Positions 12,169-34,687 of a stretch of 39,589 nt of DNA are shown here, in pieces. The position numbers were made by a program, and so were the translations under genes. Source of the stretch: Verrucomicrobiia bacterium (lineage in GTDB: Bacteria > Verrucomicrobiota > Verrucomicrobiia > Limisphaerales > UBA11358); NCBI GenBank assembly GCA_025451535.1, contig JANWKE010000001.1:1-39589 (forward strand), written 5' to 3'. The number at the start of each line of letters is the position of its first letter. The stretch's first letter is position 1. A model generated the notes under the pieces. It was not told the origin of the DNA. It saw only the letters and a list, made by a program, of their open reading frames with translations, and searched no databases.

Positions 12169-12330
12169 TTGTCCCAAAGGGACGACCGATAATAGCCCGC
12201 AGTTTCAACTGCGGGTACGATGCCGTGGATAATAAATCAGCCCCGAAGGGGCGGCTGACCATGCCATCATTTCAACGCTGGGGGAAATTTGGAATTGCAT
12301 AAGTTCCGAAGGAACGGCTGTATTGATTTC
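12169..12330 (+). repeat. REP palindromes upstream of transposase
   Basis: The 182 bp between the EboF-like stop and the transposase hold four small palindromes: GTCCC-AAA-GGGAC at 12171-12183, CCCGCAGTTTCAACTGCGGG at 12196-12215, CCCCGAAGGGG at 12241-12251, and GTTCCGAAGGAAC at 12303-12315. The second is the exact reverse complement of the copy at 12822-12841, on the other side of the transposase. They are typical of REP sequences served by RAYT enzymes. Confidence 0.75.
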
Positions 12331-12777
12331 ATGTCCTACGTCAGTTCTTATTTCCATTGTGTTTTCAGTACCAAGGAACGCCGCCGCCTCATCACACCGG
12401 AACTGCGCGAACGCCTCTGGCCATTCCTCGGCGGCATCGCCCGACAAAACAAAATGAAGGCCATTGAAATTGGCGGCGTGGAAGACCACGTGCACATTTT
12501 GCTTTCGCTACCGCCCACAATGGCGATTTCCAAGGCACTGCAATTGATCAAAGGCGGTTCGTCAAAATGGATTCATGAAACTTTTCCCGAACACCGGCTG
12601 TTTGCATGGCAGGAGGAATACGGTGCGTTCAGTGTCAGTGTTTCACAATTAGACAAAACCATCGAATACATCAAGGGACAGGAAGAGCATCATTGCCGGA
12701 TGACATTTAAGGAGGAATTTCTGGCGTTGCTGAAAAAACATCGCATCGAATACGACGAACGATATTTATGGAAATGA
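12331..12777 (+). mobile_element. rayT: REP-associated tyrosine transposase (RAYT, IS200-like Y1)
   Basis: 148 residues from ATG 12331; the open frame extends upstream to a TTG, but MSYVSSYFHCVFSTK is the usual family start. It is a Y1 transposase: HUH motif H53-V-H55 in VEDHVHILLSLPP, GGSSKWIHE, FAWQEEYGAFSVS, and IEYIKGQEEHH with the likely nucleophile Y113. Family members cut and mobilise REP/BIME hairpins but are usually single-copy and domesticated. Here the gene lies between inverted copies of one REP, which is the classical arrangement. It appears intact and is probably responsible for spreading at least some palindromes seen in this window. Confidence 0.88.
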
Positions 12778-12786
12778 GTTTCGGTC

Positions 12787-12980
12787 GTCCCGTCGGGACC
12801 AATCCTGTTTTGTCCCGTAAACCCGCAGTTGAAACTGCGGGCTATTTTCAAACGCCGCGTTGCGGCTCATTGCAAAACCTGGGCAGGCGTGACGTTGGTG
12901 CCGAGCGAACAAGTCGGCGGTCTGTTAAGTCTGGAGTTCACACGTCAGCGTGTTAAAAGCAACCTAAAGGTTGAACTCCA
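12787..12980 (+). repeat. REP cluster and hairpin element downstream of transposase
   Basis: GTCCCGTCGGGAC (12787-12799) and CCCGCAGTTGAAACTGCGGG (12822-12841) mirror the upstream REPs. The end, 12932-12980, is a separate 49-bp palindrome: TGGAGTTCA at the left pairs with TGAACTCCA at the right, with inner stems ACACG-TCAG-CGTGT and AACCT-AA-AGGTT. No gene is seen between 12778 and 13009. Confidence 0.7.
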
Positions 12981-17841: not shown

Positions 17842-17946
17842 GTGTTGGTTAATCTGTTAAATCAGTAATTGGTTAAACGAGTTAAATAAGTCAAGGCCCC
17901 TCAACTAATTACTGATTTAACCAGTTACTCATTTAACGAACTTAAC
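17842..17946. repeat. AT-rich inverted repeat between gmhB-like gene and glmS
   Basis: An exact 14-bp inverted repeat (TTAAATCAGTAATT at 17857-17870, AATTACTGATTTAA at 17907-17920) is embedded in degenerate GTTAA-rich units. The GmhB-like stop codon lies in it, so the protein's last residues (LSSLNE) are repeat-encoded. It could act as a hairpin in the gmhB-glmS transcript. Confidence 0.6.
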
Positions 17947-31973: not shown

Positions 31974-34586
31974 CTACGTCGCCGATTTTGGTTCCACATT
32001 CGTTCCTAACATTTTTAGAAATTCTTGCTCCGTCAAAATTTTTACCCCCCAATTTTTTGCCTTGTCCAATTTCGAACCCGCTTCTTCTCCAGCGAGGAGA
32101 AAATCGGTGTTCTTGCTGACCGCACTGGTTACGTTTCCGCCAGCTTCACGAATCATTGCAGATGCTTCATCACGAGAAAGTGTTGGCAGTGTGCCAGTGA
32201 GAACGAAAGTCTTACCTGTAAGTGGTGTCGTCTCAATCTGTGTTCTTTTAGACGACGATTCGGTTGGGTGAATGTCAAGTGTGTGGAGGCGTTTAAGGAT
32301 TTTCTTTCCGATTGGAGTCTCAAAAAAACGGAGCAAATTGCGAGCACCCTCCAATTCAATATCCGCAGTGACTTCTAGAACTGGCGGAGCCAATTCTTTG
32401 TTTTTCTTCTTCTGCTTTTCCTTTTTTCCGACCTTTAGAACAACGCCAGCTTTTTGAAGATTTGCGACAAGTTCTTCAATCTGATTATTTACTCTGGTCT
32501 GTTGTTCAATTCGTTGCCTCCACTCTTCCTTTTCTTGCGCGGATAATCGCTCAATTTCAGCTTTCAATTGTTGCCGCTTCACAACATCTGTTTCGGAATC
32601 CAGTATTTTCTCTTTAGCGATCCGCTCTTTTCGAATCGGTCCCATGTTAATCATCGAATCTGGGCTCAGTAATTTTGCTTCCTCTACTTTCTCATAAAGC
32701 AGGAGAGACTGTTTCAAAATCTCAGAGCGAGAGATTTCCTCAAGGTCTCTGTGGATTTGGGCTATTTGATATGCAGTTGTTTCTCCAACACTAGGTACTC
32801 CAAGAGCTAAGAGCCAGCGGGAGAGCGGCGCGGTTTTGGCGCGCTGGAGCGCTTCCAGAACTTTCGTCGTATTTTTCTCACCGAACACGCGCGGCTCATC
32901 CTCCGTTCCGAGATTCAGTTTGGCGAGTTGCTCCAGTTTCAAATCGAACAGGTCGAGCGGTTCCTTGACGAGACCGCGTTCGACGAGTTTTTCGGCGACG
33001 ATGCCGCCGAGCGACTCGATGTCGAGGGCCTTGCGGTGCGCGAAATATTCGACGCGCCGGGTTTGCTGTGCCGGGCAGCCGGCGATGTTCTGGCAACGCC
33101 AGGCAACTTCTTCTTCTCCATTCGGAGGGACGAGCTCCACGAGTCCCTGACTTCCCGATTTTAATTTGGGACTCGTGTAACTCGTCCCTCCGATTTCGGC
33201 AGCGCGCGACGATTTTAATTTTTCCTTCGCAATCGGCCCGCCGCACGCGGGACATTTGCCATCGACAAATTTGAACAAATCAAATTCCTTCGCGCCGGGC
33301 GGACGTTTGGTTTTCACCACCTCGGCCACTTCGGGGATCACCATGCCGGCCTTGCGGATGACCACGGTGTCGCCGATGCGGATGTCTTTGCGGCGGATTT
33401 CGTCCTCGTTGTGCAGCGTGGCGCGCGAAATCGTCGAGCCTTGGACAAAGACCGGTTCGAGTTCGGCCACCGGCGTGAGTACGCCGGTGCGTCCGACCTG
33501 CACGGTGATGGCCTTGAGCACGGTTTCGGCGGGCGTGATCCACGGCACGGGTTTGTGGACGATGGCCCAGCCCGGCGCGCGGGCACGGCCGGGAACGCGT
33601 GCCCAATCGGCGAGGGTGTTGACCTTGAGCACAATGCCGTCGATCTCATACGGCAACTGCCGGCGCAGGTCTTTGTCCTCATCGTAATGCGCGACGACCT
33701 TTTCGCGATAGATTTTCAAAACCTCCTCGATGCCGTTGCAGACCCACCAGAGTTTTTGCGTGGGCAAACCAAATTGAGCGAGCGCTTCCAACATTTCGGA
33801 ATGTTTATTGAACTCAATGCCTTCCACCTTGCCGGTCGCGTAAAACACGGCGCGAATCGGGCGTTGCGCAACCAGCTTCGGGTCGAGTTGCTTGAGCGTG
33901 CCAGCGGTGGCGTTGCGGGCATTGGGGAACGGTTTTTCCCCTTCGGCTTCGAGTTTCTTGTTGATGGCGTCGAATTCCTTTACCGGCATGTAAGCTTCAC
34001 CACGCACTTCGAGCAGGGCAGGGGGATTCTTCAACTTTAATTCCAGTGGAATCGCGCGGACCGTTTTGAGATTCGTTGTGATGTCATCGCCTTCCGTGCC
34101 ATCACCGCGTGTGACGCCAAGGGCGAATTTACCATTTCGGTAATGGACGCTGATGGATACGCCGTCCACCTTCGGTTCCATGATGTATTGAATCCGGTCG
34201 CGTCCGAGATGTTTGCAGAGGGTTGCATCCCAGTCACGTAGTTCGGCCAACGTGTTTTCATCCTGTTGGCGATTGCGTTCGTCGCGATTCGGTACCTCGA
34301 CGCTGGTCGGATGTTCGGCGGCTTGGACTTTGTCGAGCGAGAGCATCGGGACGAGATGTTTGACCCGGACGAACTTCTCGCTCGGCGCACCGCCGACGCG
34401 TTGTGTCGGTGATTCGGGCGTAACGAGCCCGGGAAATTGTTTCTCCAAGTCCTGCAATTCCTTGAAGAGCTCGTCGTATTCGCGGTCGGTGATGAGTTGC
34501 CGGCCTTCGACGTAATAGGCGTGATCGTGTCGCCGGATTTCGTCGGCGAGTCGGGCGTGGCGGGCTTTGGCTTCACGGAGTGCCAT
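31974..34586 (-). CDS. ligA: NAD-dependent DNA ligase LigA, enlarged by three insertions
   Basis: About 870 residues from ATG 34586, against ~670 for typical LigA. A TTG at 34643 would add 19. Present: YYxG/ITDREYDELF, PMLSLD, the adenylation motif EPKVDGVSISVHYRNG (nucleophile K139), TRGDGTEGDDITTN, NPRNATAG-like NARNATAGTLKQLD, the OB domain, a zinc finger CPAC/CQNIAGC, HhH helices with GVPSVGETTA, and a C-terminal BRCT (GKTFVLTGTLPTLSRDEA). Extra segments: ~23 residues after PMLSLD, ~34 inside the zinc finger (the 70-bp palindrome 33123-33192), and a charged ~100-residue coiled coil in the HhH region. Joins DNA nicks in replication and repair. Confidence 0.92.
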   Translation of the reverse strand: MALREAKARHARLADEIRRHDHAYYVEGRQLITDREYDELFKELQDLEKQFPGLVTPESPTQRVGGAPSEKFVRVKHLVPMLSLDKVQAAEHPTSVEVPNRDERNRQQDENTLAELRDWDATLCKHLGRDRIQYIMEPKVDGVSISVHYRNGKFALGVTRGDGTEGDDITTNLKTVRAIPLELKLKNPPALLEVRGEAYMPVKEFDAINKKLEAEGEKPFPNARNATAGTLKQLDPKLVAQRPIRAVFYATGKVEGIEFNKHSEMLEALAQFGLPTQKLWWVCNGIEEVLKIYREKVVAHYDEDKDLRRQLPYEIDGIVLKVNTLADWARVPGRARAPGWAIVHKPVPWITPAETVLKAITVQVGRTGVLTPVAELEPVFVQGSTISRATLHNEDEIRRKDIRIGDTVVIRKAGMVIPEVAEVVKTKRPPGAKEFDLFKFVDGKCPACGGPIAKEKLKSSRAAEIGGTSYTSPKLKSGSQGLVELVPPNGEEEVAWRCQNIAGCPAQQTRRVEYFAHRKALDIESLGGIVAEKLVERGLVKEPLDLFDLKLEQLAKLNLGTEDEPRVFGEKNTTKVLEALQRAKTAPLSRWLLALGVPSVGETTAYQIAQIHRDLEEISRSEILKQSLLLYEKVEEAKLLSPDSMINMGPIRKERIAKEKILDSETDVVKRQQLKAEIERLSAQEKEEWRQRIEQQTRVNNQIEELVANLQKAGVVLKVGKKEKQKKKNKELAPPVLEVTADIELEGARNLLRFFETPIGKKILKRLHTLDIHPTESSSKRTQIETTPLTGKTFVLTGTLPTLSRDEASAMIREAGGNVTSAVSKNTDFLLAGEEAGSKLDKAKNWGVKILTEQEFLKMLGTNVEPKSAT
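33123..33192 (-). repeat. Palindromic element family C, in frame in ligA zinc finger
   Basis: 70 bp. Arms 33123-33147 and 33168-33192 match as inverted repeats at 23 of 25 positions (outer CGGAGGGACGAG, inner CACGAGTCCC). The 20-bp interior holds CGATTTTAATTT, which also occurs at 33210-33221, 18 bp beyond the right arm. It is read in the ligA frame as about EIGGTSYTSPKLKSGSQGLVELVPPN, between the two cysteine pairs of the zinc finger. Confidence 0.78.
34242..34331 (-). repeat. Candidate in-frame insertion in ligA after PMLSLD
   Basis: Between PMLSLD and LRDWD this protein has 30 residues where LigA usually has about 7. The extra segment (AAEHPTSVEVPNRDERNRQQ) is polar and low in complexity. 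I do not see strong inverted arms, so calling it a mobile repeat is tentative. Confidence 0.35.
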
Positions 34587-34687
34587 CGCGGGAATTTTGC
34601 TACGAGGCCCCGCCCCAAGGATAGTTTTTTCGTGAGGCTGCAAGCAGCCTGTTCAGGCCATAAAATCGTTCCGAAGCCAGCTGCTGA

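Follow-up and report, generated by a model that had tools for sequence, protein, structure and literature searches.

REPINs, attributed to Bertels and Rainey in 2011, reportedly consist of a pair of inverted REP units separated by a variable spacer, occur in many copies per genome, and are associated with RAYT genes. Intragenic REPs, which are GTAG- or CGTC-tagged palindromes often occurring as dimers, lie in frame within genes, many of which function in DNA synthesis and repair (Rocco, De Gregorio and Di Nocera 2013; PMC3733652). In the parts of that paper drawn on here, GTAG cases are most numerous in the verrucomicrobium Opitutus terrae, in which both uvrA genes and a DNA ligase carry inserts; CGTC-tagged REPs have a terminal CGTC, an 8- to 9-bp stem, and a loop of usually 4 to 5 bp; flexible linkers or loops are favored by the authors as sites; and different REPs at the same site are reported in one case, recB of two Xanthomonas (PMC3733652). 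The classical case is that of the Rickettsia palindromic elements (RPEs), which, in the sections of the sources used here, lie in frame in many unrelated proteins (PMC10969869, PMC3733652).

The window analyzed here, a 39,589-nt stretch of a Verrucomicrobiia genome (phylum Verrucomicrobiota, inferred order Limisphaerales; contig JANWKE010000001.1 of assembly GCA_025451535.1), carries a palindrome of a repeat family, family A, inside ligA. Judged against the same parts of these papers, family A resembles intragenic REPs in being palindromic, two-unit, and in frame inside genes, but its consensus lacks GTAG and its arms measure about 24 to 26 nt. RPEs are about 150 bp long and belong to another phylum with another sequence, whereas family A is about 70 bp long and is one of several families found in one loop. 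Like REPINs, family A has inverted units, a variable spacer, and a high copy number; unlike them, it was found with no closely flanking RAYT gene in the loci examined. Intragenic palindromes, including one in an O. terrae DNA ligase, are already published, and in the literature searched no report was found of one loop occupied by many different palindrome families across species, beyond the recB pair (PMC3733652). The data presented below make it probable that non-autonomous mobile palindromes are tolerated in permissive loops, which are refilled repeatedly by different families.

Palindrome in the zinc finger of LigA

The ligA gene (positions 31974 to 34643, minus strand) encodes an NAD-dependent DNA ligase of 889 amino acids with a TTG start and is the single ligA match in the assembly. 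An inverted-repeat search delimits the left arm of the palindrome, TCGGAGGGACGAGCTCCACGAGTCCC (33122 to 33147), a sequence that recurs across the genome, and its right arm, GGGACTCGTGTAACTCGTCCCTCCGA (33168 to 33193), on either side of the spacer TGACTTCCCGATTTTAATTT (33148 to 33167). The arms are 26 nt each, 92% complementary, and 20 nt apart, and they form the longest and strongest of the five inverted repeats that the search settings returned for the window, as well as the window's sole copy of family A. The first-pass annotation had described the same element, one base shorter at each end (70 bp, 33123 to 33192), as splitting the zinc finger of LigA. This description holds, as the repeat-derived insert, with arms recurring genome-wide, lies between CPAC (33243 to 33254, minus strand), which is zinc cysteine pair 1 (Cys464 and Cys467), and CQNIAGC (33075 to 33095, minus strand), which is pair 2 (Cys517 and Cys523). 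The coding strand reads ...KEKLKSSRAAEI-GGTSYTSPKLKSGSQGLVELVPP-NGEEEVAWRCQN... across the element, which encodes 23 residues in frame, and the four zinc cysteines are invariant in 34 aligned LigA sequences. The Pfam C4 zinc-finger model matches only with positions 13 to 27 of 27 (24.1 bits against a cutoff of 25.8), and this confinement to the second half is expected from a finger split by an insert. Relatives without the insert exist, and most have a loop of 18 residues compared with 47 here, a difference of 29; in an alignment with PDB 2owo, the query runs from 472 to 510 over a stretch in which the chain runs from 416 to 419, giving about 35 extra residues. The first-pass annotation had given about 34. 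A further inverted repeat (19 nt, 95% complementary, AT rich) lies between two ORFs at positions 17856 to 17921 of the window.

In an AlphaFold2 model built from 34 rows, LigA residues 476 to 512 have pLDDT values below 50, and the strands on either side (470 to 476 and 512 to 517) are kept; the model, which contains no zinc, is fair overall (mean pLDDT of 73 and pTM of 0.44), with a poor OB region as well. The insert, previously described as probably structured as a loop, is thus predicted to be a disordered loop between two kept beta strands. As ligA is single in the assembly, the insert is likely translated and the host protein is likely working. It is unlikely that the insert has been recruited for a function, such as regulating the ligase or forming a hairpin in ligA RNA or DNA. 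Its DNA identity between this genome (G000) and the congener G022, 93.1% (5 of 72 bases differ) versus 87.0% in the 420-codon N-terminal part, would agree with recruitment, with no preference of the changes for third codon positions (2 of 5); however, five differences are too few for inferring constraint, and young age would look the same. In addition, the loop of other species holds different sequences, most LigA proteins have no insert, and the added residues are predicted to be disordered. The insert probably persists because the loop is permissive, in that the added residues would form a disordered surface loop while the four cysteines and the flanking strands are predicted to remain.

The 12-mer CGATTTTAATTT occurs both in the spacer (33156 to 33167) and in the flank (33210 to 33221), and it had been thought that this repeat may mark the insertion event. 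The flank copy is instead native sequence of the loop edge, its codons AAA TTA AAA are found again in the LigA loops of relatives, and it is altered in G022 despite the same insert. Spacer-to-flank similarity exceeds permutation in 32 copies of this genome (P values from 0.03 to 0.001, depending on window and score), and no excess is seen in another 40 copies, of which five other genomes supplied 39 (P values of 0.42 and 0.34); with all 72 copies pooled (P values of 0.04 and 0.002), the copies of this genome drive the signal. Since the excess was not reproduced in the other 40 copies, the repeat was rejected both as an insertion scar and as a sign of spacers being copied from the neighborhood.

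Copies and architecture of family A

The 4.4-Mb assembly is fragmented, with an estimated completeness of 97.9% and contamination of 4.8%. A search with the element yielded at least 61 matches at an E value of ≤0.001 (40 of 66 candidates scored), which represent 38 places after the strands were merged by hand. The exact pattern GGAGGGRCGAG N30-60 CTCGYCCCTCC occurs at 25 places, versus none for the reversed control, and two of these fall outside the 38, giving at least 40 family A places in the genome. Exact copies are also present in 12 of 58 relatives (13 of 59 genomes with this one included), and the reversed control had no match in all 59. The genome search for the arms proposed in the first-pass annotation thus revealed many further copies, and no relative was found with the same insert and no repeat similarity elsewhere. 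A fragmented assembly with some contamination could produce an artefact, and an inverted repeat could arise by chance, but either origin is extremely improbable for the LigA palindrome given the genomic places without control matches, the same insert in the independent G022 assembly, and the kept frame; the repeat census rules both out.

Family A consists of two inverted units flanking a variable spacer, and in the inverted pair and high copy number it is like REP and REPIN sequences. The arms and the ends, TCGGAGGG and CCCTCCGA, are conserved, and the spacers, ranging from 11 to 30 nt, differ from copy to copy. In 144 ends, the +1 base is G in 99% and the +2 base is A in 86%. The GTAG end motif is not present in the ends or consensus of family A; CGTC is found inside the arms (CTCGTCCC) rather than at the terminus, and the stem and loop sizes are unlike those of CGTC-tagged REPs. 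A target site duplication, the mark of a classical MITE, was not detected in 72 copies (offsets of 0 to 4 and lengths of 4 to 5 gave 0 to 1 matches versus shuffled means of 0 to 0.5), and no Rfam family matched at the ligA palindrome. These features are those of a putative non-autonomous mobile palindrome with REP-doublet architecture, which would move without target duplication.

RAYT proteins were considered as the mover of family A. The window carries an ORF for a RAYT-type Y1 transposase (12289 to 12777, plus strand), which is flanked by repeats of another family. It is one of three strong RAYT genes of the genome, whose flanks hold other repeats and, within about 1.5 kb, no family A arms with up to one mismatch. 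Among 37 RAYT-domain loci from seven genomes, none is closely adjoined by family A, and the single two-arm copy lies at a distance of about 0.8 kb (L218). RAYT was therefore rejected as the mover because of this lack of linkage in the genome and in the 37 loci. The Rfam Acido-Lenti-1 RNA (RF01687) has 16 matches in the genome, 6 of them above the cutoff. It flanks the strong RAYT genes on both sides on contigs C1 and C122 and on one side on C97, and in the window it lies at 12170 to 12215 and 12822 to 12867, around the RAYT ORF; Acido-Lenti-1 may really be the RAYT-associated REP repeat.

Family A in other proteins

From the 38 places, 36 loci were fetched, and 21 had a long open frame that was translated across the element. 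All three reading phases are used (4, 8, and 9 loci for phases 0, 1, and 2, respectively). The element lies within Pfam-defined extents in 13 of the 21 (LigA included), and the others are outside a domain (3 loci), have no Pfam match (4 loci), or have a match below the cutoff only (1 locus). The hosts with the element inside such an extent include valyl-tRNA synthetase (ValRS), ArgRS, RsmA, IspG, an ABC-F protein, a helicase, a polyketide synthase, aminotransferases, and a methionine-synthase-like protein. Of six proteins aligned with PDB structures, four (LigA, ValRS, RsmA, and a class-III aminotransferase) have extra residues where the element lies; ArgRS has only about 9, and the IspG alignment is uninformative. 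Like RPEs, family A is inserted in frame in conserved proteins.

Diversity of inserts in the LigA loop

A sample of 110 LigA loci, composed of 30 loci plus the best 80 of 567 and thus not random, gave 108 parsed loops. The 88 distinct loops comprise 60 short (12 to 22 aa) and 28 long (34 to 71 aa) ones, and 25 of the long loops are palindrome-type inserts or likely remains thereof. Folding z scores are −2.5 or lower in 18 of the 28, compared with a mean of −0.12 and a minimum of −2.1 in the 60 short loops. Of the 10 long loops above −2.5, L046, L114, and L119 were judged by eye to be non-palindromic, L119 having a long loop with no palindrome. The long zinc-finger loops of L046, L084, and L114 have extra CxxC motifs and no palindrome, and these motifs perhaps represent a second zinc ribbon.

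The congener G022 carries the same family A insert in ligA with 5 differences in 24 codons. A family A copy in the ligA of G005 lies several codons closer to the first cysteine pair than that of G000 and G022, and there is therefore no fixed nucleotide target. The palindrome in the LigA loop was correctly recognized in the first-pass annotation, which missed the different palindromes in the same loop of other species. Family B (TCGCGCGAAG...) has five sequences, family C is CCCTCACCC...CTCTCCCC, family D is GGGCCGAGCTGCC..., another group has the ends GACGCCTGTCC/GTCTCGCCTG, and further palindromes occur besides. BLAST grouped the 28 long loops into 11 clusters. Because composite loops bridge C, D, and others into one of these clusters, the claim is limited to at least five families rather than 11. 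In a search of 12 genomes for copies of their own ligA inserts (40 candidates scored in all but one; counts are among the matches listed), the insert is clearly a repeat of its own genome in seven (G001, G017, G045, G060, G061, G062, and G063), with 15 near-full-length copies in G001, about 25 in G045, and two near-full-length copies and several halves in G017. Among the matches listed, G009 has one short piece and G064 one partial copy, and no further home copy appears for G002, G006, and G059; matches to the G006 insert do occur in G001, G002, G009, and G017.

A LigA tree was built from the part before the loop with 88 rows (L069, being too short, was omitted), and its support is weak in much of the tree. 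Filled and short loops are intermixed on it, with at least 18 changes when all long loops are counted and at least 15 filled/empty changes on the best 85-row tree, from which the three non-palindromic long loops had been removed; the well-supported branches alone give 4 independent filled/empty pairs. The filled loops are not one clade. G000 and G022 group with L052, which is short, and L093, which has a different palindrome. A fully supported six-member clade contains the composite loops L120, L122, and L124 and the short loops L141, L127, and L138. L120 consists of D plus C, L122 of another palindrome plus C, and L124 of the non-C palindrome of L122 with a remnant-like tail; their edges agree, and they have modules in common pairwise (68 nt at 91% and 29 nt at 93%). 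This pattern matches what stacking and loss would leave.

A first tree, made from the loop and 160 residues beyond, misplaced the LigA of this genome because its C-terminal part is mosaic, and it was replaced by the N-terminal tree. From about residue 600 (31974 to 32830 of the window), this LigA is closest to L046, L061, and L069 (up to about 85 to 88% per 40 residues versus 5 to 60% for others), and the upstream part is closest to G024 and G022. This suggests recombination within ligA.

The insert is shared with G022 in position and frame, and a copy would have entered ligA in their putative ancestor. The landing frame is free of stops, the insert has a frame-keeping length, and the site is the tip of the hairpin joining the zinc-finger halves. 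In related lineages, different palindrome families have probably occupied the same loop on repeated occasions, and the composite loops outline how occupants are replaced, with a new palindrome stacking and the old one being lost, the molecular steps of which we infer.

Other loops that hold palindromes

A second LigA loop, which follows IPLEL in the adenylation domain, is 15 aa long in 52 and 31 to 44 aa long in 8 of the 61 LigA sequences with both anchors, and 7 of the 8 long ones (e.g., L054, L066, L073, L094, and L096) have codon-shuffle z scores of −3.5 or lower. LigA inserts of at least 12 residues outside both loops are found mainly in the variable C-terminal part. In ValRS, 25 loops parsed from 30 loci are 19 aa (9 loops), 30 aa (2 loops), or 42 to 71 aa (14 loops) long, and 13 of the 14 long ones have z scores of −3.2 or lower. 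A single clade of the 14 filled ValRS sequences was rejected by the AU test (P = 3.8e-7), on a tree of 25 rows in which 5 of 22 inner branches have full support and three branches are long. Most ValRS palindromes share outer arms, and so this slot shows less diversity than that in LigA.

At the sites of other family A hosts, the ValRS site holds other palindromes in G022 and G045 (the G024 stretch, L205, was left out for poor alignment), the PNP-like site holds other palindromes in G022 and G024, and the aminotransferase site keeps family A in G022 and is short in G024. In G022, about 25 more places match its ValRS insert, and in G024, more than 15 match its PNP insert; the ValRS insert of G045 and the PNP-like insert of G022 have matches in pieces. 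The ArgRS loops of G024 and G022 (L208 and L207) contain a different repeat-like stretch, CATTCAACATCCAACGTTCAACATT.

Loop edges and turnover of the inserts

A KExK-like start (with K, N, or Q; one row was set by hand) is present in 20 of 24 filled LigA loops versus 1 of 61 short ones. In ValRS, the loop start CVEQ is found in 11 of 14 filled versus 0 of 9 short loops, or in 14 of 14 versus 0 of 9 when variants are included by a rule widened after inspection. This covariation of edge and filling does not fit simple independent insertion, and the edges are either part of an exchanged cassette or adapted to the long loop. One explanation, which we regard as possible but doubtful, is that each site is old and persistent, with edges inherited or exchanged between lineages by homologous recombination and the palindrome replaced, through gene conversion or template switching, with repeats of the respective genome, which implies fewer independent landings than the tree suggests. 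It accounts for edge residues that track filling whatever the palindrome, and it agrees with the mosaic nature of this LigA and with outer arms (GGAGCGC...GCGCTCC) that, by eye, are common to at least 10 of the 14 long ValRS loops with different interiors. Of the LigA columns most strongly associated with filling, in statistics whose shuffles ignore the tree and whose filled set includes the duplicate row L084 (a non-palindromic long loop), the majority also lie no more than 8 residues from the loop. However, L051, L090, L094, and L096 are filled and lack the edge, some weaker associated columns lie 25 to 53 residues downstream, those at 43 to 53 residues indicating that simple relatedness is part of the signal, and the gene-conversion step is putative.

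Repeated filling of permissive loops by mobile palindromes remains the preferred reading. On the strength of the edge pattern, we tentatively extend it to the conceivable view that certain loops of essential proteins (the LigA zinc-finger loop, the IPLEL loop, the ValRS loop, and others) serve the order as long-lived docking slots, in which the edges persist, the filling flips, and the palindrome is swapped for that of whichever repeat family is active in the genome concerned by stacking, deletion, or conversion.

Implications

The LigA insert shows how a mobile palindrome can spread within a gene that is normally essential, and apparently present once, and leave that gene intact. Loops that different repeats have occupied and vacated again and again serve as natural replicates, and two questions become testable, namely, what moves palindromes that lack their own transposase and whether protein loops evolve by the capture of such DNA. 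If the docking-slot view is true, repeats would have a habitat in protein loops, and the occupant of each loop would record the recent repeat history of its genome.
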